Below are positions 45,665-60,352 of a stretch of 64,000 bases of DNA, in pieces. The notes below the pieces were generated by a model. That model was not told the origin of the DNA. It saw nothing but the letters and a program-made list of their open reading frames with translations, and made no database searches. Position 1 is the first letter of the stretch; every line of letters starts with the position of its first letter. The position numbers and the translations under genes are program-made. The stretch comes from Novipirellula artificiosorum (GTDB lineage: Bacteria; Planctomycetota; Planctomycetia; Pirellulales; Pirellulaceae), in NCBI RefSeq assembly GCF_007860135.1, contig NZ_SJPV01000001.1, positions 668,939-732,938 on the forward strand, given 5' to 3'.

Positions 45665-48181
45665 ATGAGCGAGCGTCATTACCTTCGAACCTCTCCCCCC
45701 CTCCTCACCATGTCCATCAAAAATCGAACCCGCCTCCTGTTTTGCAGCTGCCTGAGTGCTGCCTTTTTCTTTCTCGCGAGCCCAACCTCACTGCATGCTC
45801 AAGGGTTCGGCCAGGCAACGCGGCTCAGCGATTGGCGTTTTCAGCTGGGCGACGTCCCCTATGGCGGCCGCGAACACCTCGATCATTCTGCTTGGCGAGA
45901 GGTCACCGTGCCTCACGACTGGAGCGTTGAACATGCGGCCAGGCCCGACTTGGCCAGCTGCACGGGGTACCTTCCCGGCGGTATCGCATGGTACCGCACC
46001 GACTTGGATCTTTCCGATCGAACGCAGATCGAGAACCAAGGCAAACGGTTCTACCTTTACTTTGGAGGCGTCTACAACAACAGCGAAGTCTTCATCAATG
46101 GAAAGTGGCTGAGCAAACGGCCCAATGGATATGTTTCTTACATGGTTGATCTGACCCCCTACGTGAAACCCGACGGAAAGAACGTGGTGGCCGTTCGCGT
46201 TGATCATAGCCAAAGTGCCGACTCGCGATGGTACACCGGGTCCGGCATCTATCGTGACGTATTTCTGGTCACCGCGAACCCGGTTCATATCGGCTTATGG
46301 GGCATTTATTACACCGCTTCGGTGACGGGCGATTTGGAAACCGGCCAAACGGCAACAATCGACGTGGAAACCAAGATTGAAAATCACACGGGGGCGTCGG
46401 TCACGGTCCAAGTTGCTCACGAGCTTCGCGATCCGTCCGGACAAACCGTCGCCACATCAAGCCAAACGATCGAGGTGGAGGCCGGCGACGATTCTCAGCA
46501 GCAGTTGACGGTCAAGAACCCGCAACTCTGGGAGATCGCCTCGCCCGATCTGTATCAGTTGCATACCAGCGTCCTGAGCGACGGCACGAAGATCGATGAA
46601 AGCACCACCTCGGTTGGCATTCGCAGCTTGACCTTCGATCCCGACAAAGGTTTCGCACTGAACGGGAAATGGACCAAGATCAAGGGCGTCTGTTTACATC
46701 ATGATGCTGGCGTGCTTGGAGCCGCGGTTCCCAAACAAGTTTGGCGCGATCGGCTGCTGCGACTCAAAGAGATTGGCTGTAATGGGATTCGGACCAGCCA
46801 CAATCCCCAGGCAACGGACCTGTACGATCTGTGCGACGAACTGGGGATGCTGGTGATGGACGAGGCTTTCGATGAATGGGAGTACCCAAAGAAGAAGTGG
46901 ATCGAAGGATGGAACGTCGGTACCCCCGGTTTCCAAGGATCGGCGGACTATTTTCGAACCTGGGGTAAGCAGGACCTCGAGTCGATGGTCCGGCGTGATC
47001 GCAACCATCCCTCGGTGATCATGTGGAGCATTGGTAACGAAGTCGATTACCCGAACGATCCCTATAGCCACCCCGTTTTGAGTGAGGAAGGCATCGGCCA
47101 GCCGCATATCGCCGGCTATCAGGAAAGTCAACCGCATGCCGATCGGCTTGGCGAGATTGCCAAAGAACTCGCCGCGGTCGTGCGCAGCTTGGATACATCG
47201 CGTCCCGTGACCGCAGCACTCGCCGGAGCGGTCATGTCCAACGAAACCGCATACCCCGATGCACTTGACGTGGTTGGCTACAACTACACCGAAGACCGTT
47301 ACGTCATGGATCACCAAAAGTACCCGCAGCGTGTGCTGTACGGCAGCGAGACCTCAAGCCGGCTCGATGCGTGGAAAGTGGTTGAGGATAACCCTTTCGT
47401 TTTTGGCCAGTTCATCTGGACCGGCATCGACTACCTTGGCGAAGCCCATCGTTGGCCGTCGCGTGGGTTCACCACGGGATTGATTGATCTCAGCAACCAA
47501 ATCAAACCCAACGGTCACTTCCGCAAATCGGTCTGGTGCGACGAACCGATGGCGTTCTTGGTCACACAGCGGCTGCGAGAATCGCGGTCAGAGCGGCGAC
47601 GTGGTTCCGGTCCGCTTTCACCACACTGGAACTGCCAAAACGACCAAAGCGTTCGTGTGATTTGCTATACCAATGGTGACGCCGCGGAGTTGTTTCTCAA
47701 TGGCCAGTCGCTTGGGGACCGACAACCGCTTGACCCAAAAACTCGCACCATCGAGTGGACGGTCCCCTATCAGCCGGGGCGTTTAGAAGTGGTTGTCGAT
47801 CGTAACGGTGAATCAATTGCGAAGCATCATTTGCAGACATCCGGTTTGCCGTATGCCGTCCGAGTCGACCATGTCTCGGGTACGCTTAAGGGTCGCCACG
47901 ACGTTGCTCTGGCCTACTTAAAAATCGTCGATTCAGAGGGCAATTTCGTCTATCTGTCGGACAACGAGATCACTTGCACGGTGCGAGGCAGTGGCAAGCT
48001 GATCGGTTTGGAGAACGGATCCAATAACGTGACGGAGGACTATACGGACCACCAACACCGCTGTAAGAACGGCCGTTTATTAGCCTACATCCAAGCAACC
48101 GAAGACACCGGCGAGATCCGCGTCGAATTCCATTCACCGCTGCTTGAATCCGAAACGCTCGATTTGACGATCGCAGAGTAA
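45665..48181 (+). CDS. Secreted GH2 glycoside hydrolase (beta-galactosidase-like)
   Basis: The 838-residue protein has a signal peptide; the first ATG (45665) gives a long n-region, and the ATG at 45710 (MSIKNRTRLLF) is an equally likely start. The N-terminal sugar-binding domain contains WREVTVPHDWSVEH and YYFGGVYNNSEVFINGK-like sequence, followed by an immunoglobulin-like domain. The TIM barrel has LKEIGCNGIRTSHNPQATDLYDLCDELGMLVMDEAFDEW (positions 365-405). Acid/base Glu is in SIGNEVDYP and the nucleophile Glu in LYGSETSSR. C-terminal beta domains follow. GH2 retaining enzymes remove terminal beta-linked galactose, glucuronate or mannose. The aglycone preference is not assignable. It acts outside the cytoplasm. 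Confidence 0.9.
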   Translation: MSERHYLRTSPPLLTMSIKNRTRLLFCSCLSAAFFFLASPTSLHAQGFGQATRLSDWRFQLGDVPYGGREHLDHSAWREVTVPHDWSVEHAARPDLASCTGYLPGGIAWYRTDLDLSDRTQIENQGKRFYLYFGGVYNNSEVFINGKWLSKRPNGYVSYMVDLTPYVKPDGKNVVAVRVDHSQSADSRWYTGSGIYRDVFLVTANPVHIGLWGIYYTASVTGDLETGQTATIDVETKIENHTGASVTVQVAHELRDPSGQTVATSSQTIEVEAGDDSQQQLTVKNPQLWEIASPDLYQLHTSVLSDGTKIDESTTSVGIRSLTFDPDKGFALNGKWTKIKGVCLHHDAGVLGAAVPKQVWRDRLLRLKEIGCNGIRTSHNPQATDLYDLCDELGMLVMDEAFDEWEYPKKKWIEGWNVGTPGFQGSADYFRTWGKQDLESMVRRDRNHPSVIMWSIGNEVDYPNDPYSHPVLSEEGIGQPHIAGYQESQPHADRLGEIAKELAAVVRSLDTSRPVTAALAGAVMSNETAYPDALDVVGYNYTEDRYVMDHQKYPQRVLYGSETSSRLDAWKVVEDNPFVFGQFIWTGIDYLGEAHRWPSRGFTTGLIDLSNQIKPNGHFRKSVWCDEPMAFLVTQRLRESRSERRRGSGPLSPHWNCQNDQSVRVICYTNGDAAELFLNGQSLGDRQPLDPKTRTIEWTVPYQPGRLEVVVDRNGESIAKHHLQTSGLPYAVRVDHVSGTLKGRHDVALAYLKIVDSEGNFVYLSDNEITCTVRGSGKLIGLENGSNNVTEDYTDHQHRCKNGRLLAYIQATEDTGEIRVEFHSPLLESETLDLTIAE

Positions 48182-48282
48182 GCCGAATTGGGGTTCGATT
48201 ACACTGGTCTCGATACAAGTCGCGATCATGGATTCTGGCTCCTCCGAAAAACGACAACTAAAAACCGGCACGACCTCTCGGA

Positions 48283-49305
48283 TTAGGGTGGCAGCTGATC
48301 CGGCATCGGTGGTGGAAGACTTCCCTGCCCACGTACCCAACCAATCAGCTTGTACCCGGCTTGTTGCCATCGCCGGAAAAACCAACGACTAATTTGGTAC
48401 GTTACGATCCCAGCAATCGCGTTGTTGAACAAAGTCTCTTTCCACATGTCAACGAAGATATCTTGGCCAGGATTGTACAACGTCAAATTAATGAGTTGGA
48501 GCATCGATTCAAAACCAACGGCGGCAAACAGAAGCAAGATCCCCCGTCTTCGGCCGCTATCGCACATCGAACAAGCAGCGCCCCACAGCACCATCAGACT
48601 CGTCGCTATCGAGCCGATATAGCTTAGGAACAACCACAAATCATTACCGGGGTATTGGATCATCATGGCGGAATCGAAAGTCGATTCGTAGATCCGCCGC
48701 ATGGCTTGATAAAGCGCAAGCACAATCGCAACCAACAGTGTCGTGAGAAACAGCCCCTTGATACTCCAGCCCTTGATCGAGGCAAAGGTCGCTTCGGCTG
48801 CCAAGTCCAACTGGGACCGATCCACCAACTGAAACTGCCAAAATTGCGACGGAATACACATCCCAATCAAGTACATCGGAATGATCAACGAGCCAAATGC
48901 CGCCCAAACGACCAGAGTCAGAGGCGAAGACTGAACAACGTGTACAACTCCCATCTGAGTCAGCAGGCCAACAATCGATAGAACGGTGAAAAAGCCTATC
49001 AGACGAACCAAGTGTGCCTTGGGCGATCGATTGGGAATCCGCCAATGCCACCAAACCGCAACTTGAAGTGCAATTGCGGTTGAAATCCCTTCCTGCGTCT
49101 TATCGAAACACTGCAATGCCGTCTGCAGGTTACCCGAATAGCCATACCAGCCGGTTAGAAACACCGCGCCGACGATTGCGGTGGCAACCGCGACGAGAAA
49201 CCAAACGCCAGTGGCGATGGCCGCGGTCACAAAGAAAATTCGTCGCCGATCGCCTGTTGCTGGCGTCGTGAGCTCGGTAAGTGATTCGATTGTCATGGGG
49301 TTCAT
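48283..49305 (-). CDS. Multi-pass membrane protein of unknown function
   Basis: This 340-residue protein has about seven hydrophobic helices: FFVTAAIATGVWFLVAVATA, TAIALQVAVWW, LIGFFTVLSIVGLLTQMG, LVVWAAFGSLIIPMYLI, GLFLTTLLVAIVLALY, LWLFLSYIGSIATSLMVLWG and ILLLFAAVGFESMLQLI. No transporter, kinase or protease motif is recognised. The C-terminus is basic then Pro-rich (PPPMPDQLPP). It converges with the GH2 gene, 101 bp away. The ATG at 49305 is one of two in frame nine bases apart; either may be used. No close family comes to mind. Confidence 0.65.
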   Translation of the reverse strand: MNPMTIESLTELTTPATGDRRRIFFVTAAIATGVWFLVAVATAIVGAVFLTGWYGYSGNLQTALQCFDKTQEGISTAIALQVAVWWHWRIPNRSPKAHLVRLIGFFTVLSIVGLLTQMGVVHVVQSSPLTLVVWAAFGSLIIPMYLIGMCIPSQFWQFQLVDRSQLDLAAEATFASIKGWSIKGLFLTTLLVAIVLALYQAMRRIYESTFDSAMMIQYPGNDLWLFLSYIGSIATSLMVLWGAACSMCDSGRRRGILLLFAAVGFESMLQLINLTLYNPGQDIFVDMWKETLFNNAIAGIVTYQISRWFFRRWQQAGYKLIGWVRGQGSLPPPMPDQLPP

Positions 49306-49578
49306 CCTAATCGATCGGCTAGACCGATTGATTCATGCGAGTGCAGTTCCACCACAAGAAGGTGTCCAATTCGGTAACCGGAGGGTGTATCGACCTGACA
49401 AACTTCGATGGTCTTTCCAAGAAACAATCGAACAAAGCGGGCTGCGCGTCGCGTACCATGGTTCAAGCCCTTCTTGGGATGGTCACAGAGTTCAAGAACT
49501 CACAGCCACTTTGGCCCGCTCGCGTTGGAGGCCCAAATCGTATCGTGTTCTTTCAATTCCAGCGTAACCGGTAATGCA

Positions 49579-49947
49579 ATGGCCAAGTGCGATCAGGGCT
49601 ACCGCTGCGAAGTCTGCGGGAAAGATGTGACCGCAATCGTCGACAGCGATCTGTATCTTCGTTTCGTGATTGGCGAACTCGATCCCGAGATCCTCCACAC
49701 GACCGCGGAGCGACACATTCGCTGCAATCCGGTGCTGGCCCAGTTTATTGATCACGCCGAATTCGATCCCTTGGTGGTCGACGGGGTGATGGGACGAGCC
49801 AACCTTGACAAGGAGTTTGTCCGCGAGCGGACCGACTTAGTGACCCGCGGATTCGAACGACTACGAGAGATCGCTATCGATGAACGCGATCGAGATGTAA
49901 CGACTTACCCCTTGGCGGAAGTGATCGCGCGGTATCGAGAAGCGTGA
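49579..49947 (+). CDS. Small cysteine-containing hypothetical protein
   Basis: The ATG at 49579 begins MAKCDQGYRCEVCGKDV and gives 122 residues; the longer frame from 49408 adds a Ser/Arg-rich tail without coding character. The CEVCGKDV pair near residue 10 with another Cys in ERHIRCNPV near 53 resembles a half zinc ribbon. The remainder is acidic and alpha-helical, with a repeated Arg/Glu pattern (VRERTDLVTRGFERLREIAI). No catalytic motif is visible. The gene stands alone, with the LplT-like transporter 149 bp downstream. I do not recognise a named family. Confidence 0.6.
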   Translation: MAKCDQGYRCEVCGKDVTAIVDSDLYLRFVIGELDPEILHTTAERHIRCNPVLAQFIDHAEFDPLVVDGVMGRANLDKEFVRERTDLVTRGFERLREIAIDERDRDVTTYPLAEVIARYREA

Positions 49948-50096
49948 GCCAAACCGGACAGGACCTTTGGCGAAGTCTTCCGCTCGAAAGGGGCTCTGTC
50001 ATGGGTAACCGCCCGTTGAGGCAGCGGTTGCAGACCATTTTCTGCTAAGATTCTGGTTTCTTATCCCGTTTCCGCTTCCGAAAGAGTCGATTCAGC

Positions 50097-51458
50097 GTGC
50101 AAAGTAACCTTTTCAAGCAAGGCTTTATGAGCCTCGTGGCGTCGCAGTTTTTCGGTGCCATGAACGACAATGTGCTCAAGGGCGTTTTGACATTCATGGT
50201 GATTGACGGCGCCTGGGCAGGCCAACTCGGCGCCGGAGGGCAAGGGATCGTTGGGATCTGTTTCACGATTCCGTTTATCGTGCTTTCGGGTTACGCCGGC
50301 CAGATTGCCGACCGCTACTCCAAACGGTCCGTGACCCTGTGGGTGAAGATCGCCGAAATTCCGATTGCGATTCTGGCGGGAATTGGTTTCTTTACGGGAA
50401 ACCTCTGGCTGACCCTTTTCGCGCTCATTGCACTGACTTGCCAGAGCTCCTTTTTTGGGCCCGCAAAATACGGCATGATTCCAGAACTCGTGGAAGGTTC
50501 GGACTTGAGCCGCGCGAACGGTACGATCAATATGATGACGAACGTCGCAGTGATCGTCGGCACGCTGTTAGCCGGTGCGGTCGCGGATGGATATAGCCCG
50601 CAGAACGGTTCACCAGGCATGCTTTGGATGCCAATCGTCGCGCTCACGGCGATCGCCATTGCAGGGCTGATTGCCGCTCGGTTCTTGACGCCGCTGCATC
50701 CAGGGGATCGCGACCTCAAATTTGATTTCAACCCCTTTACGACCTACGTCATGGCGATTCGCGAGATGGCGAAGACCCGACTCTTGATGGTGATGATGGC
50801 CTGGGGGTACTTCTACCTGCTCGCCGGAATCGCACTGTTCATCGTGCCCGAATACACGGTGGTGCTGGGGATCAACCGAAGTGAAGCAAGCGTTTTGATG
50901 GGGGTGCTTGGAGTTGCGATCGGCATCGGATGCGCCGTTGCAGGCCTGATTTCCGGGCACCATATCGAGCCACGACTGATTCCGATCGGAGCCGCGGGGT
51001 TGGTGGTCTTCTTTGCCTTGCTAGGCCTCGTCCCTCCGTCGCTTCCCGACATGGCACCGATGGTACGGGTTGCCTTCAGCAACGTTTCATTTTTCATTCT
51101 GGGTGCGGGGTTCTTCGCTGGCTTCTACATCATCCCGCTGCAAGCCTTGCTTCAAAAGCTGTCACCGGATGACGAGCGAGGACGTTTCTTGGGAACGGCG
51201 AATGCCGTTTCGTTTGCTTTCTTAACCTTGGCAGCCTTATTTTATTGGGCCATTCGGCCTGTCTTTGGTAACGCACCGCAAAACATCTTCTGGGTCAGTA
51301 GCGTGCTGATGGCAGCCGGTGCTGCCTTCTTCTTGTGGAAATTGCGTGGAACCGGCTTGGTGATCGGAAGCAAAGCGGATACCGACACGCCGAAGCCCAC
51401 TAGCCTGGAAGCCGACGAAACGGGGAACCCTTACCAGCCACCGATTCAAAACGAATAG
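50097..51458 (+). CDS. MFS transporter of the lysophospholipid transporter (LplT-like) type
   Basis: The 453-residue protein starts at a GTG (50097). QGFMSLVASQFFGAMNDNVLKG is the family N-terminus and IADRYSKRSVTLWVKIAEIPI carries the MFS loop 2-3 motif. ALTCQSSFFGPAKYGMIPELV with RANGTINMMTN is highly characteristic of the LplT/Aas MFS clade. About twelve membrane helices span to residue 425, then a short polar tail. LplT moves lysophospholipids across the inner membrane for re-acylation. Here no acyltransferase domain or gene follows, so a role in lysophospholipid recycling is inferred and another substrate is possible. It is convergent with draT, separated by a gene remnant. Confidence 0.8.
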   Translation: MQSNLFKQGFMSLVASQFFGAMNDNVLKGVLTFMVIDGAWAGQLGAGGQGIVGICFTIPFIVLSGYAGQIADRYSKRSVTLWVKIAEIPIAILAGIGFFTGNLWLTLFALIALTCQSSFFGPAKYGMIPELVEGSDLSRANGTINMMTNVAVIVGTLLAGAVADGYSPQNGSPGMLWMPIVALTAIAIAGLIAARFLTPLHPGDRDLKFDFNPFTTYVMAIREMAKTRLLMVMMAWGYFYLLAGIALFIVPEYTVVLGINRSEASVLMGVLGVAIGIGCAVAGLISGHHIEPRLIPIGAAGLVVFFALLGLVPPSLPDMAPMVRVAFSNVSFFILGAGFFAGFYIIPLQALLQKLSPDDERGRFLGTANAVSFAFLTLAALFYWAIRPVFGNAPQNIFWVSSVLMAAGAAFFLWKLRGTGLVIGSKADTDTPKPTSLEADETGNPYQPPIQNE

Positions 51459-51622
51459 CACTGAGTCGAGCGTGCCCCACGCATTCCAGCTTCACCCTTG
51501 GGATCGAAAACCCGATTTCCGTCGATCGTTCCTTCGCCGGCCACTGCGATATTTTTCAGTTTTTCGCCAACAATGAGTCCTCGGTTCCAACGGTTCTTTT
51601 TCCAATCGTCCGAAGTAAATCC

Positions 51623-51799
51623 TCGGTAGGCATCTTCGTTCGCCAGGCCGACGGAAAGTGGTTATTGCAAGAGTACCAATCGATGGGACAAGCGGCAACG
51701 TTCGAGTCGATCGCCGTTGTGGTTCCGCTGACCGACATCTACCGCAACATCAAGTTTAACGATCCTCTTTCCAGAGAGAGTCTCCGTCCCACTCAGTAG
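51623..51799 (+). pseudogene. Remnant of a Uma2-family nuclease C-terminus
   Basis: A plus-strand frame without a usable start reads SVGIFVRQADGKWLLQEYQS, then MGQAATFESIAVVVPLTDIY and RNIKF before a TAG at 51797. This matches the C-terminal strand-rich end of Uma2-like proteins (W-x-x-x-EY ... IPL-x-x-IY). The frame stays open upstream to about 51465 but without resemblance to the family or an ATG. It overlaps the draT stop by seven bases on the opposite strand. It fills most of the 334-bp gap between the transporter and draT and is probably a decayed gene fragment. Confidence 0.5.
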
Positions 51800-52596
51800 A
51801 TCATTTCGCGAACACGGAATTCGCCGCCGATCACAAGGTATTCGTGCTCGCCTCGTAAAATACTGTTCGGCAAGAGATCGCTAAAAAATATTATTTTCGA
51901 AATCGGTGCTTCAACTTCCCAAACTCGCGAGCCGAATTCCCAGGCGCACTCGCGATCCGTGGTAAACGAACTGAGATTATTGAGTCGCACACAACTGCGG
52001 CGGTCACCCTCTTGGCGAATGACGTCATATTCGCCCGCGTCGTAGGTACCGCGGTACAGTTTCAAATGCTCCGCATCGCGATAACGAAGGCGCAGTTCAT
52101 ATTGGCAGAACTCGTACAACAAATCGAACTGGGAATGGATCGAATTGGTACACGCCATACCTTTCATTCGGTCGACCGCGAATCGGTAATCGTCGTCGTC
52201 GCTGGTTCCAAGCAATCGGCCTCGATGATAGGTGGGCTGAAGTCCAAATCGACTGCGGACCCAATCTTTCAAGACGGCCCCTTCAATGGAATTGGAGTCA
52301 ACTCCCCAGCCATTGAAAAAGCGAATGTAGCTATTTCGCAGTCCGCGACGTGTGCTTCCCGAGTGCTGTTTCCACTCATGAAGTCGAAACTTAACGTTCA
52401 TGAACTCGTCTAAGATTCGGCCACGATCGTGTGGCTGCTCGACATCCGCAATCTTCTTAAAAAAAACCGCGTTCGCTTCACGCACTCCCGACAAACTCAA
52501 GGGCACCGGATGCTCGTTGTATTCTTCCGACGCAATCACCCATGGCGGTAGGTTGCAGAGGTTGACGACGGAATGCTGCGGCGTCGAAACTGGCAT
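51793..52596 (-). CDS. DraT-like NAD+-dinitrogen-reductase ADP-ribosyltransferase
   Basis: The 267-residue protein matches DraT along its length: LPPWVIASEEYNEHPVPL, then NSYIRFFNGWGVDSNSIEGA, VRSRFGLQPTYHRGRL, DLLYEFCQYELRLR and the catalytic end. ADP-ribosyltransferase residues are Arg182 in LKLYRGTYD, Ser210 in NNLSSFTTDRE and the Glu pair in EHEYLVIGGEF (Glu252/Glu259). DraT transfers ADP-ribose from NAD+ to an arginine of nitrogenase Fe protein. No nif gene is in the window and the usual partner, the DraG hydrolase, is replaced by a macrodomain-like gene 75 bp upstream on the same strand. The real target may therefore be another protein. Confidence 0.82.
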   Translation of the reverse strand: MPVSTPQHSVVNLCNLPPWVIASEEYNEHPVPLSLSGVREANAVFFKKIADVEQPHDRGRILDEFMNVKFRLHEWKQHSGSTRRGLRNSYIRFFNGWGVDSNSIEGAVLKDWVRSRFGLQPTYHRGRLLGTSDDDDYRFAVDRMKGMACTNSIHSQFDLLYEFCQYELRLRYRDAEHLKLYRGTYDAGEYDVIRQEGDRRSCVRLNNLSSFTTDRECAWEFGSRVWEVEAPISKIIFFSDLLPNSILRGEHEYLVIGGEFRVREMIY

Positions 52597-52671
52597 GACC
52601 GAATTACCCGATGCTGTAAAGGAGAGCCGAGGGCGGATTATAGCCGGTGCAATCGTGGAAAATCCATTGAC

Positions 52672-53673
52672 CTAGAAAGCTGTGCCAATTTGCCGCACCA
52701 AGTTAGCGACAAGCGGCTTTGAGGATCCATGAGAAACAATCACGACATCGAGACCACTGTCGTGGTGCTTCTGACAGGCTCGCTCAAGCGCGTCAACGAT
52801 CCATTGCTCCGGATTGCCGAAGGCGCCACCACCGAGCAGTGTCAAAAACAGCCGACTGCATCCGTAATGCTCTGCGTTCAGGATGCCAGCACAAAAAGTC
52901 GCTTCGTAGGCTGCCTCGAGGATCAGCCGAGCGAAATCGGCCCATTCGGCAGCTTCCTGGCGTCCGTAGGCGACCGGCAACGCGGAACAAAGGGCCTGAG
53001 AAACCCGGTGACCTGCACCCGGTAACGTGACAGCAGCGTTCCATTGCAATCCGATTCGCAGCGAACCCCGATACCGATCAAGTTGACATTCATCGGCTGC
53101 TTGAAGTTGCCGCGTGATCTCATTCAGCCCCCAATCGGTCGGCAACATGTAACCGTTCTCCATCGTCCAAAGCGATCCCTCGCGATTCCCAAGTCGCAGT
53201 CCAAGGTCCGCAGCACAGTCGATTTGATGATTTGCGGATTGCCCTGTCTCGTTACCGACAATTGCAAAGTAGTTGCGATAGATGGCTGCAGCACCACATG
53301 AGATCGCACAGGCAGGGCCCTGGGTCCAGTCGCGTTCGTAGATTCCGACACCGCGTTCCGGCGTCACCGAAGGGCTGGCCATCTCCAGCAGATTAAACTG
53401 GGATGCGACCTGAAACATCGCGTGTGCGTTCGCCGAATTCGCATGCAAATCGCGAGCGTTCGCGACCACTTCGGACAGTCTTAGTTTGCCGGTTGGGCGC
53501 CTCACTTGATCGACTCGCTGACGCAATTCCTCAAGCGTTGGCGTCTCGAGCATACCGAAAGCCATCCGTTTGCCGTCGAGTCGCACAATGCAATCGCCAT
53601 CTACCCTCAATTGCGAACGAACCTGGTCCGGCGATGCCTCGCGGAAGCCGGTCAGTTCATCAAACCAAGTCAT
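52672..53673 (-). CDS. Macrodomain-like protein, candidate ADP-ribose binder/hydrolase
   Basis: The 333-residue protein starts at an ATG (MTWFDELTGF). Recognisable blocks are MFQVASQFNLLEMASPSVTPE, DWTQGPACAISCGAAAIYRNYF, GSLWTMENGYMLP and LFLTLLGGGAFGNPEQWIVDA, then GLDVVIVSHGSS. The GGGAFGNP stretch followed by WI-x-x-A resembles the ADP-ribose phosphate loop (G-[VIA]-[FY]-G) of macrodomains, and no N-terminal signal is present, so it is cytoplasmic. The family looks conserved but I know no characterised member. It precedes draT by 75 bp and follows the secreted glycosidase-like gene by 35 bp, so removal or binding of ADP-ribose put on by DraT is the natural hypothesis. A fold assignment from eye alone is uncertain. 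Confidence 0.55.
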   Translation of the reverse strand: MTWFDELTGFREASPDQVRSQLRVDGDCIVRLDGKRMAFGMLETPTLEELRQRVDQVRRPTGKLRLSEVVANARDLHANSANAHAMFQVASQFNLLEMASPSVTPERGVGIYERDWTQGPACAISCGAAAIYRNYFAIVGNETGQSANHQIDCAADLGLRLGNREGSLWTMENGYMLPTDWGLNEITRQLQAADECQLDRYRGSLRIGLQWNAAVTLPGAGHRVSQALCSALPVAYGRQEAAEWADFARLILEAAYEATFCAGILNAEHYGCSRLFLTLLGGGAFGNPEQWIVDALERACQKHHDSGLDVVIVSHGSSKPLVANLVRQIGTAF

Positions 53674-53708
53674 CTCGTGATCCCGAATGGTTCTATCGTC
53701 AACACAAC

Positions 53709-55415
53709 TTAGAAATCGACGCGAATCAAATCGCCGAAATCATCGAGCAGCTCATACTTTTTTTCCCAAGGAGTGTACATCATTCCTCGGGCACCTTGGG
53801 TTCCTTTGACGATCTTGAACCAAAGGCGAACCTGCTCAAGATCATCCGCATCATAGTAACAGGACGCCAAAGTGCGAAAGCCTTGCCCGGAGAAGAACTT
53901 CATGCTTTCTTCTCGTGGTTCGTTGCCCCAAACGGCAAGGATCAAATCCTCTGGGACATGATTCCATGAACCATTAAAGTCGCCGTTGACGAGGTGATAA
54001 TCCGCATGGGCGTTGTGGTTGGGGTCGAGCATATCCGACCAAACATAGATCTCAACGCCTGGCATGTGTCGCCTTAAGATTTCCGTGATCTTGGTTAGAC
54101 ATTCGCCCAGCAACTCAGCCATGTCACGCCCCCCGCACGCCTGGCAAGTTCCGCCCATGCGGATTTCGTCAGCATTGAGGAACACCCGCTTTGGATGCAG
54201 GCGTTCGGCTAGCAACTTCGCTTCCTGCTCATAGATTTCGTAAAGCCTCGGTTCGGCCATGCAGATCGTGACCTGCGACGCGTTGATCACTTGCGAGTGA
54301 TACCAGCTCACCTGGAGCGTTTCCCCGAGCTTGATCCGAGACTCCGCAGGAATTCGGATGGAGGGCACGGGCCCGTCGGCGCGGTAAGGATTCAATTGGG
54401 GATCCTCGATGCGTTGAAAGTCCTCGCCTTCCACAAACTCAACCGTACCGTCTTCACACTTAACCGAAACCGGCGTTCCGGGACGACGCAACACATTAAG
54501 CGGTCCAATTTCCTCAATGGCCCAATCGTCCACCCACAACTTACCTGCAATGCCGCCCCACATGCCCGCGTAGACTCGTACGGAATCATGATCCAAACTA
54601 TTGAAGACCAACGTCAGTTTCTGCCAATCCCCCGTCGAGGAAAGCTGGAATTTTCTCGGTGCAATCGGGCGGTCGCCAACGAGGACTTGGACCATGAAGC
54701 TGTTCGTTGGTTTCAAATTCTCGGTCCTAACCCAGACACTCAGACGATAACAACGGTGGGGATGCAATTGGACCTGCTGCATCACGCGTCCGTGCCCATG
54801 GGGGTTTGCTGTGAAGTTTTCCAAACGCAGCGACGCGTCACCGGAATGCTTTACCGCCGTGTCAACAAAACTCACTTCGCCTGGTGCATCGTGGAACTGC
54901 CACCCTGCAAAACGGTTTCCCTGATACGCTTCGAAGTCGGCATTGCGGAATGCGACGTCGGGATCGGCAACAAGTTCGGCGGTCCCCTCTCGGACCATGA
55001 AGGGAGCATCGACCACCGGCACCCCTTCCGCGAGATTACGATCATGGACCAGCGCCGAACCTCCATAGCCAATCGAAAAAATGGCGGGTATCAACTCAAG
55101 TTCATGACGGTCGCATACAGCCTCAATTTGCTGAAGGCGCCGGAAGTAGCTGGGCGACTTCGTACTCAGCGAATCGAGCCCAAGTGACATGACCGCACCA
55201 TTGATCCCGTGCTCGGCGGCAGTCTCGAGAACTTTTGTCATCTCGTCGACATCCGAGTCGCGGCTGAGGTTCCAGCCAAACATCCAAACGAACCGGTCAG
55301 GAAGCGACTGCGCACGGCTCGATGAGGGAGCAAGCCAAACAAAAAACAGTAACAGGAAGGGGATGATTGGCGACCGAGCGAGATTGCCGCAAATCGAGTG
55401 ATGGAAGATCGCCAT
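53709..55415 (-). CDS. Secreted TIM-barrel glycosidase-like protein with a carbohydrate-binding insert
   Basis: The 568-residue protein has a signal peptide (IPFLLLFFVWLAPSSSRAQS). The barrel begins PDRFVWMFGWNLSRDSDVDEM and continues after an inserted beta domain (about 150-300; FADAYQGNRFAGWQ-like CBM sequence with SLRLENFTANPHGH and LWVDDWAIEEIG). Then PKRVFLNADEIRMGG carries an Asp-Glu pair as in GH20-type barrels, followed by ACGGRDMAELLGECL, IYVWSDMLDPNHNAH and WNHVPEDLILAVWG. A substrate-assisted hexosaminidase-like mechanism is possible, but the family is not certain. It is upstream of, and probably co-transcribed with, the macrodomain-like and draT genes. Confidence 0.65.
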   Translation of the reverse strand: MAIFHHSICGNLARSPIIPFLLLFFVWLAPSSSRAQSLPDRFVWMFGWNLSRDSDVDEMTKVLETAAEHGINGAVMSLGLDSLSTKSPSYFRRLQQIEAVCDRHELELIPAIFSIGYGGSALVHDRNLAEGVPVVDAPFMVREGTAELVADPDVAFRNADFEAYQGNRFAGWQFHDAPGEVSFVDTAVKHSGDASLRLENFTANPHGHGRVMQQVQLHPHRCYRLSVWVRTENLKPTNSFMVQVLVGDRPIAPRKFQLSSTGDWQKLTLVFNSLDHDSVRVYAGMWGGIAGKLWVDDWAIEEIGPLNVLRRPGTPVSVKCEDGTVEFVEGEDFQRIEDPQLNPYRADGPVPSIRIPAESRIKLGETLQVSWYHSQVINASQVTICMAEPRLYEIYEQEAKLLAERLHPKRVFLNADEIRMGGTCQACGGRDMAELLGECLTKITEILRRHMPGVEIYVWSDMLDPNHNAHADYHLVNGDFNGSWNHVPEDLILAVWGNEPREESMKFFSGQGFRTLASCYYDADDLEQVRLWFKIVKGTQGARGMMYTPWEKKYELLDDFGDLIRVDF

Positions 55416-55567
55416 GGCAAAGCCTCTTAAAGTTCACCTTTCCGCGCAACGTCGAAACCACGACGGGTCAAACACATCGCTGATCACGTCTTCCTGGTGC
55501 GGTTGACAACAGGCGGAAGCCGGACCCGCGAGAACAGGCATATCGGCGATTTGCTCTGCATCGCGGG

Positions 55568-56905
<1,338 letters not shown>

Positions 56906-57194
56906 TTATGCTCCATCGGACACACCGCCAGGAATTTCCTGACAGCAAGTCCCAGTGAAAAACGGAAAATTGGTGCATCAGTTATACGACGCAAAATGGG
57001 TTTGGAGTAGACGGGCAGCATCCATCGAGTCATCGTCCTCAGCGCCGATTCGCGTTTCACGAACGGGCACAAGTCGTCTGATTTGGCGAGATACCATCAA
57101 AGTAGGAAGCTGCTGAACCATTCTTCAAGTCAAATTGAGCCCCAAATCTACCTGAGCGTACGGTTCTCGTCTGCCAACTCTCACTCCCCGAAAC

Positions 57195-58559
57195 TCAAAG
57201 CGTCTTCAGATACTCCAGCACTGCCCACTTTTCCTGTTCGGTCAGCTGATCGGGGTAGTCGTGACCGGCACTACTTTTCCCGAAACGTCGGGTATCAAAA
57301 TAAGTGCGGCGAATCGCAACGTCCGGTTCGGTCAGTGGCACTTTTTCAACGACTTCAATTTCCAGTCCGACATGGGCTTGATCCATCTGCTGCGAAATCG
57401 GTCGCCAGACTTGGGGGCGCTGGGCCGGATGCAAAACGTGCCAAAGCGTCGGAACACTACCGTTGTGAAAGTACGGCGCGCTCGCCCAGACACCATCGAG
57501 CGGTGGTGCGACGTAACCGTCCGGATCGACAACCGTCGCCTGGCGCTGCAACGGACCTCTCTGGGCAAACCAACTTGCAGCATACTTCGCTCGCCCTTCG
57601 CTCGGCAGCGCAGTCAAGCGGACGGGATCGGTCCCGATCTCGGAAAGCGGTATTCGACGATTTGGATACTCACCCTGATCCCCATACGTCCCATGGCATT
57701 CCGCACAGCTTTGATCAAACAAATGCTTTCCACGGAGAGACAATTTCTCGTCGACACGCCCCTGATACTTCGGCGGTCGCAGGGACGCCATGTAAGCAAA
57801 GACATCTCGGAACTCATCCTCGTGTTCACGGAAGTACTCAGGACCGTTTTCGGGCACGAGCATGAACTGCATCAATCCGCGATGCCCTTTTTCTGCAAAT
57901 CCGTCGATGTAGAGATACGGTCGTTTATGAAAATACCACCATGGAGGTGCGTCCATGTCATGGTGCGTGAATTTCTCCGGCAACCGGTCGATCACGTTTA
58001 ACGCTTCGTCGCGAAATTGCATCAGCCCCATTCCGAAAACGACCGCGTTGGTGGTGCCATGCGTGGTCCCCAACGGCACCACGAGCGAGCCGATATCCAT
58101 GCGAGTCAGTGGTTCACCGAGGCGGAATTTGGTTCGCCGGATTTCCTCACTGAGCGTTTGCAAGCCAAACCGGTTATTCGGAGCCCCCGGCGTCGGGTCA
58201 CCGTAGACACTTCCGCCGTGACAGGCAAAACAGTTCATCGTCCAGCGACCCTCGGCATCGACAACGTACTGAAGCGGCTTCCCCGAATCGTCGTCCGGTC
58301 GAGGGGTTAGCCCGTAACGATCAAAAGCCATTTTTCGGCGCTGTTGCGTCGTTGCATTTTCCGCTTCTCGACATAGCGGTTCAGGCCACGCCTGCCAAAC
58401 TTCATCGAAGACGTGCTGATCAAAATCGCTCGGTAAGACGGGCGTTTCGGTAAGCAGTCGGTAGCCTCGCGCGGCGGCACCGCCCTGCTCTGCCCTGACC
58501 ATTGCCAGCGGAAGACAGGTGAGAACCATCAAAGCCGTCAGTCTATTTCGATACGTCAT
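57195..58559 (-). CDS. Exported di-heme c-type cytochrome (peroxidase/RoxA-like)
   Basis: This 454-residue protein has a signal peptide (LTALMVLTCLPLAMVRA) and two heme-binding motifs: CFACH near residue 110 and CAECH near 285. Spacing between them is that of the cytochrome-c peroxidase/RoxA group. The second domain has GVWASAPYFHNGSVPTLWHVL, the block that precedes the distal methionine or histidine in MauG-like proteins. TFSRG or peroxidase-specific residues could not be assigned. RoxA members are dioxygenases for polyisoprene; others are peroxidases. It would act in the periplasm as an electron-transfer or oxidation enzyme. Its 3' end is 292 bp upstream of thiC. Confidence 0.85.
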   Translation of the reverse strand: MTYRNRLTALMVLTCLPLAMVRAEQGGAAARGYRLLTETPVLPSDFDQHVFDEVWQAWPEPLCREAENATTQQRRKMAFDRYGLTPRPDDDSGKPLQYVVDAEGRWTMNCFACHGGSVYGDPTPGAPNNRFGLQTLSEEIRRTKFRLGEPLTRMDIGSLVVPLGTTHGTTNAVVFGMGLMQFRDEALNVIDRLPEKFTHHDMDAPPWWYFHKRPYLYIDGFAEKGHRGLMQFMLVPENGPEYFREHEDEFRDVFAYMASLRPPKYQGRVDEKLSLRGKHLFDQSCAECHGTYGDQGEYPNRRIPLSEIGTDPVRLTALPSEGRAKYAASWFAQRGPLQRQATVVDPDGYVAPPLDGVWASAPYFHNGSVPTLWHVLHPAQRPQVWRPISQQMDQAHVGLEIEVVEKVPLTEPDVAIRRTYFDTRRFGKSSAGHDYPDQLTEQEKWAVLEYLKTL

Positions 58560-58663
58560 GCTGGTATTTTACGCCAGTGACAATCGGGGCAAGACTTGGG
58601 CGCATTCCCGTTCCGCGACAAATCACTCCATCAGGCCGCCGTGACAGCGGACTGAACGGGAAA

Positions 58664-58870
58664 TCAATCGAGTGAAAAACCGATTTTTACGGTGACTTGC
58701 CAGTTATCAACTTTGCCGTCGATAATATTTCCACGCGTTTCGGTCACTTCAAACCAAGCGAGCCCACGGATGCTCTGTGAAGCTTGTTTGATCGCGCTTT
58801 CGACAGCTTCTTCGATCGAGATGGTGGAGGTACCGGTGATTTCGATTTTCTTGTAAATACGATTGGGCAT
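58664..58870 (-). CDS. Dodecin, flavin-binding
   Basis: The 68-residue protein matches dodecin: IYKKIEITGTSTISIEEAVE, then AIKQASQSIRGLAWFEVTE and DNWQVTVKIGFSLD. The Trp39 (LAWFE) stacks on the flavin in known structures and Gln in DNWQV contacts its edge. Dodecins form 12-mers that store or buffer riboflavin/FMN in the cytoplasm. It starts at an ATG, with an ICMT-like gene diverging 99 bp away, and lies 105 bp after the cytochrome gene start. Confidence 0.92.
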   Translation of the reverse strand: MPNRIYKKIEITGTSTISIEEAVESAIKQASQSIRGLAWFEVTETRGNIIDGKVDNWQVTVKIGFSLD

Positions 58871-58968
58871 GGCCTAGTCCTGTTCGACGGTGAAAATGGG
58901 GTCAGAAAACACACCCTTAATGTAGCGCGTTGCCACCCTGTTTGCCATACCACACCAACAAAACCGCC

Positions 58969-59406
58969 ATGCGACAAACTGCCCTAGTGATTGCTCAGTT
59001 TTTCCTTTCGGCTGCAATCGTCCTATCCGCGAACTGGCATCCACCGGACGGGTTGCCCGTCGCACTTTCGCTGCCAGGCGTTGGCATTGCCGTCTGGGCT
59101 TGGGTAACCATCGGGCTGCGAAATATCCGCATTCACCCATCGCCTACTGATCGAACCCAGCTTGCCACGTCCGGCCCCTATCATTTCATTCGGCACCCGA
59201 TGTATGCGGGTGTCTTGTGGATGACCGGCGCCCTGCTGTGGAGCAATCCGCAATGGTGGCGTGCCCTCGCTTGGGGCGTCTTATGGTTGGTGCTTTTTGG
59301 AAAAGCAACGATGGAAGAGCAAGCGATGGCTGAACAGTTCCCAGATTATGAAAATCTGCAAAAGCGAACGGGCATGCTGTGGCCACGGTTGGGTTCTCGA
59401 AAATGA
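58969..59406 (+). CDS. ICMT-like membrane methyltransferase
   Basis: The ATG at 58969 is preferred over a TTG at 58930, giving 145 residues. Helices are ALVIAQFFLSAAIVLSA, VALSLPGVGIAVWAWVTIG and RALAWGVLWLVLFGKATM. The family motif follows: GPYHFIRHPMYAGVLWMTGALL with EEQAMAEQFPDYENLQKRTG. This is the isoprenylcysteine carboxyl methyltransferase / phospholipid methyltransferase type, using SAM in the membrane. The substrate in bacteria is generally unknown. It diverges from dodecin. The 295 bp after it hold a weak GATCC/GGATC stem and no gene that I can support. Confidence 0.85.
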   Translation: MRQTALVIAQFFLSAAIVLSANWHPPDGLPVALSLPGVGIAVWAWVTIGLRNIRIHPSPTDRTQLATSGPYHFIRHPMYAGVLWMTGALLWSNPQWWRALAWGVLWLVLFGKATMEEQAMAEQFPDYENLQKRTGMLWPRLGSRK

Positions 59407-59701
59407 TTCATCCGCAGGATCCGCGAGTAAGATGGATCCGAAAAAGGATCATTGATGCGAAGGAGGGTCCCTTACCTCGAGGAACGTGCGAAAAATAAGT
59501 GGCGTAAGCTTCTCCGATACCAAAGTTGTTTTTCGATCGACCCTCGCCACGGCGCGGCCCTGGGCTTGGGAAGACAACGCCGTTGGCGTCAGGACATTCC
59601 TCAAGATCAAAACGTGGTAGTGGTCTGCGGTGCGTTCCGCCCGGAGAAGCCGGACGGAAGCCAACATAAACCGTTGATGACAAACGCCTCGTTGCTCCGC
59701 T

Positions 59702-60352
59702 TCAAACCCGCCTCTTGCGTTTGCGTCCTATTTCCATGATGCCAACCGAACCAGCCATCAAAACCGTGATCGACGAAGGTTCGGGCACTGCGGTAACATC
59801 GAACGAAATGCTTTGAAATCCGTACGAATCTTCGGCGGTAAAAACAAGAGTGGAACCTGACGCGAGATCAATTCGACCAGAGGGCGTCCAGGTATCCGTG
59901 CCCCCGTTGAAATCGGCAAGGCCATCAACGAGGACAAAGCTGGAACCACCAATGGTCACCAATGCCGAGTCCGAGGCTCCACCCGCCCCAATGAAATTAA
60001 CGTCGTTCAGTGCAACAACTAAGTCGGAAAACGAAACAGTAAACGTCAACGTTTCGCCCGCATCGAGTTCGCTTGCCTCGTCGCCATCGCCCGCTGTTAC
60101 CCCAGCTGAATCGACACCCGCTGTCGTCTTGTTCGCATTAAACGAGGATCCGGATGCCCCTGTGATGGTTGAACTCGTTGCCACGGACAACGTCAGTCCG
60201 GATAGCGTGGTCGAACCAGAAGCTTCGAGATCGTCAGCCGGCTCGTTGAGAACGTCCGCATCATCCAGCAGCAGGAACGGGACAACCGCCGCGTCTGAAC
60301 TGCTTGCGACGATCACTGCACCGCAAAAAGCGAGGAAACGAAGTTGGAACAT
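59702..60352 (-). CDS. PEP-CTERM sorted secreted protein
   Basis: The ATG at 60352 has GGAGGT nine bases upstream and begins a signal peptide (MFQLRFLAFCGAVIVASSSDA); the longer frame to 60442 overlaps the promoter. The protein is 216 residues, low in aromatic residues and rich in Ser, Thr, Asp and Gly, with a likely beta-sandwich (TFTVSFSDLVVAL, SGSTLVFTAEDSYG). The C-terminus is AVPEPSSITVLMAGSVGIM followed by a basic EIGRKRKRRV tail, the PEP-CTERM signal for exosortase sorting; the hydrophobic part is short and followed by a Glu. The function is unknown. Confidence 0.85.
   Translation of the reverse strand: MFQLRFLAFCGAVIVASSSDAAVVPFLLLDDADVLNEPADDLEASGSTTLSGLTLSVATSSTITGASGSSFNANKTTAGVDSAGVTAGDGDEASELDAGETLTFTVSFSDLVVALNDVNFIGAGGASDSALVTIGGSSFVLVDGLADFNGGTDTWTPSGRIDLASGSTLVFTAEDSYGFQSISFDVTAVPEPSSITVLMAGSVGIMEIGRKRKRRV

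Follow-up and report, generated by a model that had tools for sequence, protein, structure and literature searches.

The closest described counterpart of the locus reported here is the DraT-DraG system of Rhodospirillum rubrum and Azospirillum, in which DraT (i.e., NAD+-dinitrogenase-reductase ADP-ribosyltransferase) modifies NifH under the control of PII proteins and a DraG-like hydrolase, usually encoded beside draT, makes the modification reversible. The arginine modified by DraT is Arg101 in R. rubrum, as given in the cited part of PMC7050489. Among planctomycetes, nitrogen fixation has been demonstrated in a cultured marine member, Crateriforma (PMC12628686), and draT goes unmentioned in the main text of that study. 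On the side of ADP-ribose removal, PARG depends on the glutamates of its QEE motif, and the DUF4804-class macrodomains, which are compared with PARG in the same source, cleave arginine-linked ADP-ribose (PMC10951314, sections cited). Stand-alone ADP-ribose-processing enzymes that lack a coupled transferase have also been proposed; the systems in the cited part of that work center on the ARG domain (PMC9503650).

The window, i.e., the whole stretch of 64,000 nucleotides of Novipirellula artificiosorum analyzed here (G000:C1:668939-732938), carries on its minus strand a draT gene (51793 to 52596; 267 aa) and a gene encoding a protein of 333 aa (52672 to 53673). A sequence-only reading of this stretch had proposed that the two constitute a reversible ADP-ribosylation system independent of nitrogenase. 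Its description of the layout was correct; the ORF coordinates place draT 75 bp downstream of the 333-aa gene on the same strand. The full-length DraT-like gene is likewise real: the product matches Pfam DRAT (PF07357) from end to end (profile positions 1 to 255 of 256; E = 4.5e-101; 337.8 bits against a cut-off of 25). The L.RG and SSF motifs are present in the window DraT and in all nine relatives (i.e., 10 of 10 aligned DraT sequences); by eye, an E.E motif is also found in all 10, GE.E in 9, and YRG in 7. We take the L.RG, SSF, and E.E motifs to be the R-S-E triad. Sequence searches returned many homologues of both the DraT and the 333-aa ORFs; thus, neither is a chance ORF. Among plasmids, draT was found in one record (Rhodobacter), and a pattern-limited search of viral contigs with a single-sequence query found none.

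Neither nif genes nor draG was seen within positions 46000 to 60000 of the window, the stretch that was read around the pair. The claim that the system operates without nitrogenase is nevertheless wrong, and the candidate "no nitrogenase" was rejected, since the same contig carries, from 37 kb past the window end, a cluster of nifB-N-E-K-D-H-A plus modABC. Curated cut-offs were passed by nifB, nifE, nifK, nifH, modA, and modB; nifD fell 1.5 bits short of its own cut-off and passed a subfamily model, nifA and modC were assigned by best match below the cut-off, and nifN, also below the cut-off, had the fused NifEN model as its best match. The nifH gene (C1:778009-778827; 459 bits against the cut-off of 394 for equivalog TIGR01287) is about 56 kb from draT. 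Its product carries GVGCAGRGIIT, which includes the CAGRG site, in the region of the DraT target arginine; we presume that CAGRG marks the site of Arg101. Since the target is encoded on the same contig, the new DraT target suggested by the sequence-only reading is not required. On the basis of the full-length profile match, the R-S-E-type motifs, and the presence in this genome of a NifH that has the target site, the protein resembles the DraT of R. rubrum and Azospirillum. The locus differs from the systems of those organisms in the distance between draT and nifH and in that no draG was found.

The latter statement, also made in the sequence-only reading, is borne out within the reach of two family searches of the genome. 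With the DraG model TIGR02662, the whole genome yielded only a 21.7-bit match of 40 residues within a fragment of 126 aa. With PF03747, it yielded the 126-aa fragment and two full-length proteins whose starts resemble export signals by eye. Among the genes whose presence elsewhere in the genome was to speak against the proposed system, nifHDK were thus found and draG was not. In a sample of 392 genomes of the phylum, eight encode DRAT, seven of these with nifH over the cut-off (the eighth, G304, is 72% complete). In all seven DRAT genomes other than the window genome, the gene after draT, in the same orientation, is DraG-like, with the profile matches 35 to 49 bases apart, and in four of the seven nifH comes next. 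None of these seven neighbors passes the curated DraG cut-off (99 to 121 bits against 337), so that they are named DraG by virtue of their position and similarity. The combination that defines a reversible DraT-DraG system (i.e., an encoded DraG-like hydrolase, usually beside draT) was therefore not found in the window genome, and the presence of draT and nif without draG raises the question of whether the modification is irreversible or is reversed by another enzyme.

The 333-aa neighbor had been guessed to be a macrodomain protein, and the predicted structure bears this out at the level of the fold. An AlphaFold2 model built from 42 aligned sequences was confident (pLDDT, 88.9; pTM, 0.91), and its best matches among solved structures were bacterial PARGs (VIA-align Z = 15.4 to 16.9), including those of Thermomonospora curvata (3sih) and Deinococcus radiodurans (5zde); the top match, 3sih, had a Z of 16.9 and an rmsd of 3.8 A over 238 aligned residues. 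Classical macrodomains ranked after the PARGs (Z of about 13). The model thus confirms a predicted macrodomain fold of PARG-like type, and the non-macrodomain fold that would have spoken against the reading was not obtained. At the sequence level, no model of Pfam, NCBIfam, PHROGs, or PADLOC matched the protein at an E value of 1 or below, and none of the Pfam families macro, PARG, and DUF4804 was detected among the 42 family members (for DUF4804, none at an E value of 5 or below). Searches of the PDB with the sequence and with its profile gave chance-level matches only, so the macrodomain kinship rests on the predicted fold.

Compared with bacterial PARGs, the protein lacks the motif GGGx(6-8)QEE (by eye) and shares 9 to 13% identity in the structural alignments, while its GGGAFGN loop resembles the GCGVFRN loop of PARG-family proteins. 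It has the macrodomain fold in common with the DUF4804 arginine-specific hydrolases; it differs from them in that neither motif given in the cited sections of PMC10951314 (i.e., the diphosphate loop and the catalytic loop) was seen by eye, no Pfam match was obtained, and no kinship was established. No DUF4804 structure was among the 50 structural matches listed, a result that excludes nothing. A QGP tripeptide at residues 118 to 120 is invariant in all 42 aligned family members and, judged by its spacing and helix position in the model, may fall where the QEE of PARG would; this placement comes from our own alignment and was not confirmed by hhalign. When the family was aligned with 11 PARG-family sequences, the local hhalign alignment joined only the C-terminal loop (probability, 43%) and the global alignment was unconvincing; neither PARG kinship nor the equivalence of QGP with QEE is thereby proved. 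The further invariant residues E97, D115, Q118, N134, E257, and N287 could form a putative alternative active site. A separate gene of the bacterial PARG family is found elsewhere in the same genome (G000:C3:368506-368943; PF10021, 128 bits).

The proposal of a conserved writer-eraser unit was not supported by the distribution of the two genes. In the phylum sample, the DRAT genomes (eight) and those with the macrodomain gene (10, by single-sequence search; seven of the 10 matches are weak, with E values of 1.4e-20 to 4.6e-9) overlap only in the window genome. In the taxonomic family of the window genome, the macrodomain gene or fragments of it occur in 97 of 241 genomes, some with fragments only; DRAT was detected in one of the 241, the window genome itself, and the remaining 96 of the 97 have no draT. 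By tblastn, no draT was found in the flanks (up to 6 kb, shorter on short contigs) of 80 other macrodomain loci from GTDB. An adjacent pair conserved across genomes was rejected on these grounds. When 50 macrodomain-bearing genomes from these 80 loci were searched whole, DRAT was found in two, both labeled Contendobacter, in which the two genes are not adjacent. Co-occurrence is thus largely absent, as the sequence-only reading had said would count against it, with the exception of three genomes in which both genes occur, side by side only in the window genome.

In both Contendobacter genomes, draT and a nifH-like gene are, by eye, arranged head to head (L184:5979-6968, L185:11848-12738, and L187). 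Seven DraG-like queries gave nothing significant on the two Contendobacter draT contigs (67,489 and 56,964 bases); in control loci, these queries do detect DraG-like genes that are more distant. In one of these genomes (G411), draT and the macrodomain gene share a contig, with 28 kb between them. Accordingly, none of the three genomes with both genes has a DraG-like gene beside draT, and the seven draT genomes with a DraG-like neighbor gave no macrodomain match in the single-sequence search. This hints at a complementary distribution of draG-like and macrodomain genes, but the genomes with both genes were reached via the macrodomain gene, two of the three belong to one genus, and the draG check in Contendobacter covered the draT contigs.

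The genes flanking the pair are shared with sister genomes. On one side is an MFS transporter gene (50097 to 51458, plus strand; Pfam MFS_1, 6.7e-27) that is present in both sisters (in L140, 88% identity across 445 aa; in L141, 82% across 461 aa), and on the other is a gene upstream of the pair encoding 568 aa (53709 to 55415, minus strand; no Pfam family) that is common with sister G582 (72% identity over 550 aa in L140). In G582, the order is MFS gene, Nudix gene, and conserved 568-aa gene, with neither draT nor the macrodomain gene; in G581, the MFS gene and thiC are on different contigs. The interval between the MFS gene and the conserved 568-aa gene is a variable slot, into which draT and the macrodomain gene may have arrived together or one after the other. 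In the sisters, the macrodomain gene is represented by fragments alone, at other genomic locations (G582:C1:8465966-8466400 and G581:C6:63519-63638), which suggests rapid gain and loss of this gene. The Nudix gene in the G582 slot (L140:2407-3009; Pfam NUDIX, 1e-7) belongs to a class that includes ADP-ribose hydrolases.

No promoter- or terminator-like site was reported inside the 75-bp gap (52597 to 52671, minus strand), where a lone TATAAT hexamer is visible by eye on the minus strand. In a scan for a nif-type promoter in positions 51401 to 57200, no strict sigma-54 site was found, only loose ones, and TGT-N10-ACA occurs in two places of the draT-region scan, both intragenic. The nif stretch (L010) itself has fewer such sites than expected by chance (1 seen, 4 expected), so the scan carries little weight. 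Sigma-70 sites (4 found versus 3.5 expected) and terminators (9 versus 6.6) were scanned as well.

The locus is most likely the known nitrogenase switch, found in an unusual context, and not a new system. Probably, the gene encodes an ordinary DraT for the NifH of the same genome, operating without draG and beside an independent accessory macrodomain gene. DraT would attach ADP-ribose to the conserved arginine of the NifH whose gene is 56 kb distant, and nitrogen fixation would stop when conditions turn; the assignment of this NifH as its substrate is inferred from the genome. The macrodomain protein would have an unrelated ADP-ribose-related job, its gene being an accessory occupant of the same variable slot, with no DraT neighbor in the other loci examined. 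Some observations count against this reading. Because both genes are missing from the G582 slot and share a strand with a spacing of 75 bp, they resemble a co-acquired pair, which speaks against independence. If the switch is reversible, the missing DraG leads one to expect another eraser, and the Contendobacter genomes, which carry the two genes and show no DraG-like gene on the contig with draT, also count against an ordinary switch.

These observations are where the principal rival finds its footing, namely that the macrodomain protein replaced DraG by non-homologous displacement and that a PARG-fold enzyme would remove ADP-ribose from the NifH arginine. The absence of a full-length DraG-like match with TIGR02662, the two exported-looking proteins and fragment that make up the PF03747 yield, and the occupation of the neighboring place by a DraG-like gene in all seven other draT loci of the phylum sample are consistent with it, as are the macrodomain gene on one of the two DraG-free Contendobacter contigs, the predicted PARG fold, and the precedent of DUF4804-class arginine specificity. 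Nevertheless, adjacency was seen in one genome only, and a single case of this kind, picked out post hoc, carries little evidential weight; moreover, the GGGx(6-8)QEE and DUF4804 motifs are missing, and nearly all family genomes with the macrodomain gene or a fragment do without draT. We consider displacement unlikely. There is a similarly small chance that the draT-macrodomain block would be a self-contained reversible nitrogenase switch with an eraser of a new hydrolase class, a solution that Contendobacter may share; if displacement were true, the eraser would differ from DraG in both fold and chemistry. Less probable still is that DraT is a one-way switch or a relic, with draG lost and modified NifH replaced by new synthesis. 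The failure of both family searches to recover draG and the lack of linkage between draT and nif fit this idea, but draT is full length and its motifs are conserved, which speaks against prolonged neutral decay. Least probable, and only slightly so at all, is that draG is present and was missed, either in an assembly gap or as a gene too divergent for the models. The assembly is in 66 contigs and the DraG-like neighbors elsewhere also score below the cut-off, but completeness is given as 100, and TIGR02662 does detect the DraG-like gene in each of the seven other DRAT genomes, with a fragment only here.

The macrodomain family may prove of greater interest than the draT locus, and its activity deserves an assay regardless of any link to DraT. 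In the open-access PMC literature, we found no paper on the DraT-macrodomain pair or on the 333-aa family. A first GTDB scan with the single 333-aa sequence as the query found nothing, though the family is common; the family occurs in at least 536 GTDB stretches, which include several from one genome and hence do not represent as many genomes. It is also present on 337 plasmid records (259 Klebsiella and 58 Escherichia), 288 of which were typed as conjugative. The family appears to be widespread, patchy, and often decaying. In a survey of mechanically called ORFs (three per side) at 84 loci, the largest cluster of recurrent neighbors comprised four loci. The absence of a recurrent neighbor in the loci examined is a likeness to the stand-alone enzymes of PMC9503650; the difference is that those described in its cited part center on the ARG domain and not on this macrodomain family. 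The family is strongly conserved in records from many phyla, without a Pfam model. Six viral-contig loci carry members, and two pairs among them look alike. On a Citrobacter plasmid (L017:5698-7515), a family member follows traI and a small ORF and precedes a repA regulatory gene.
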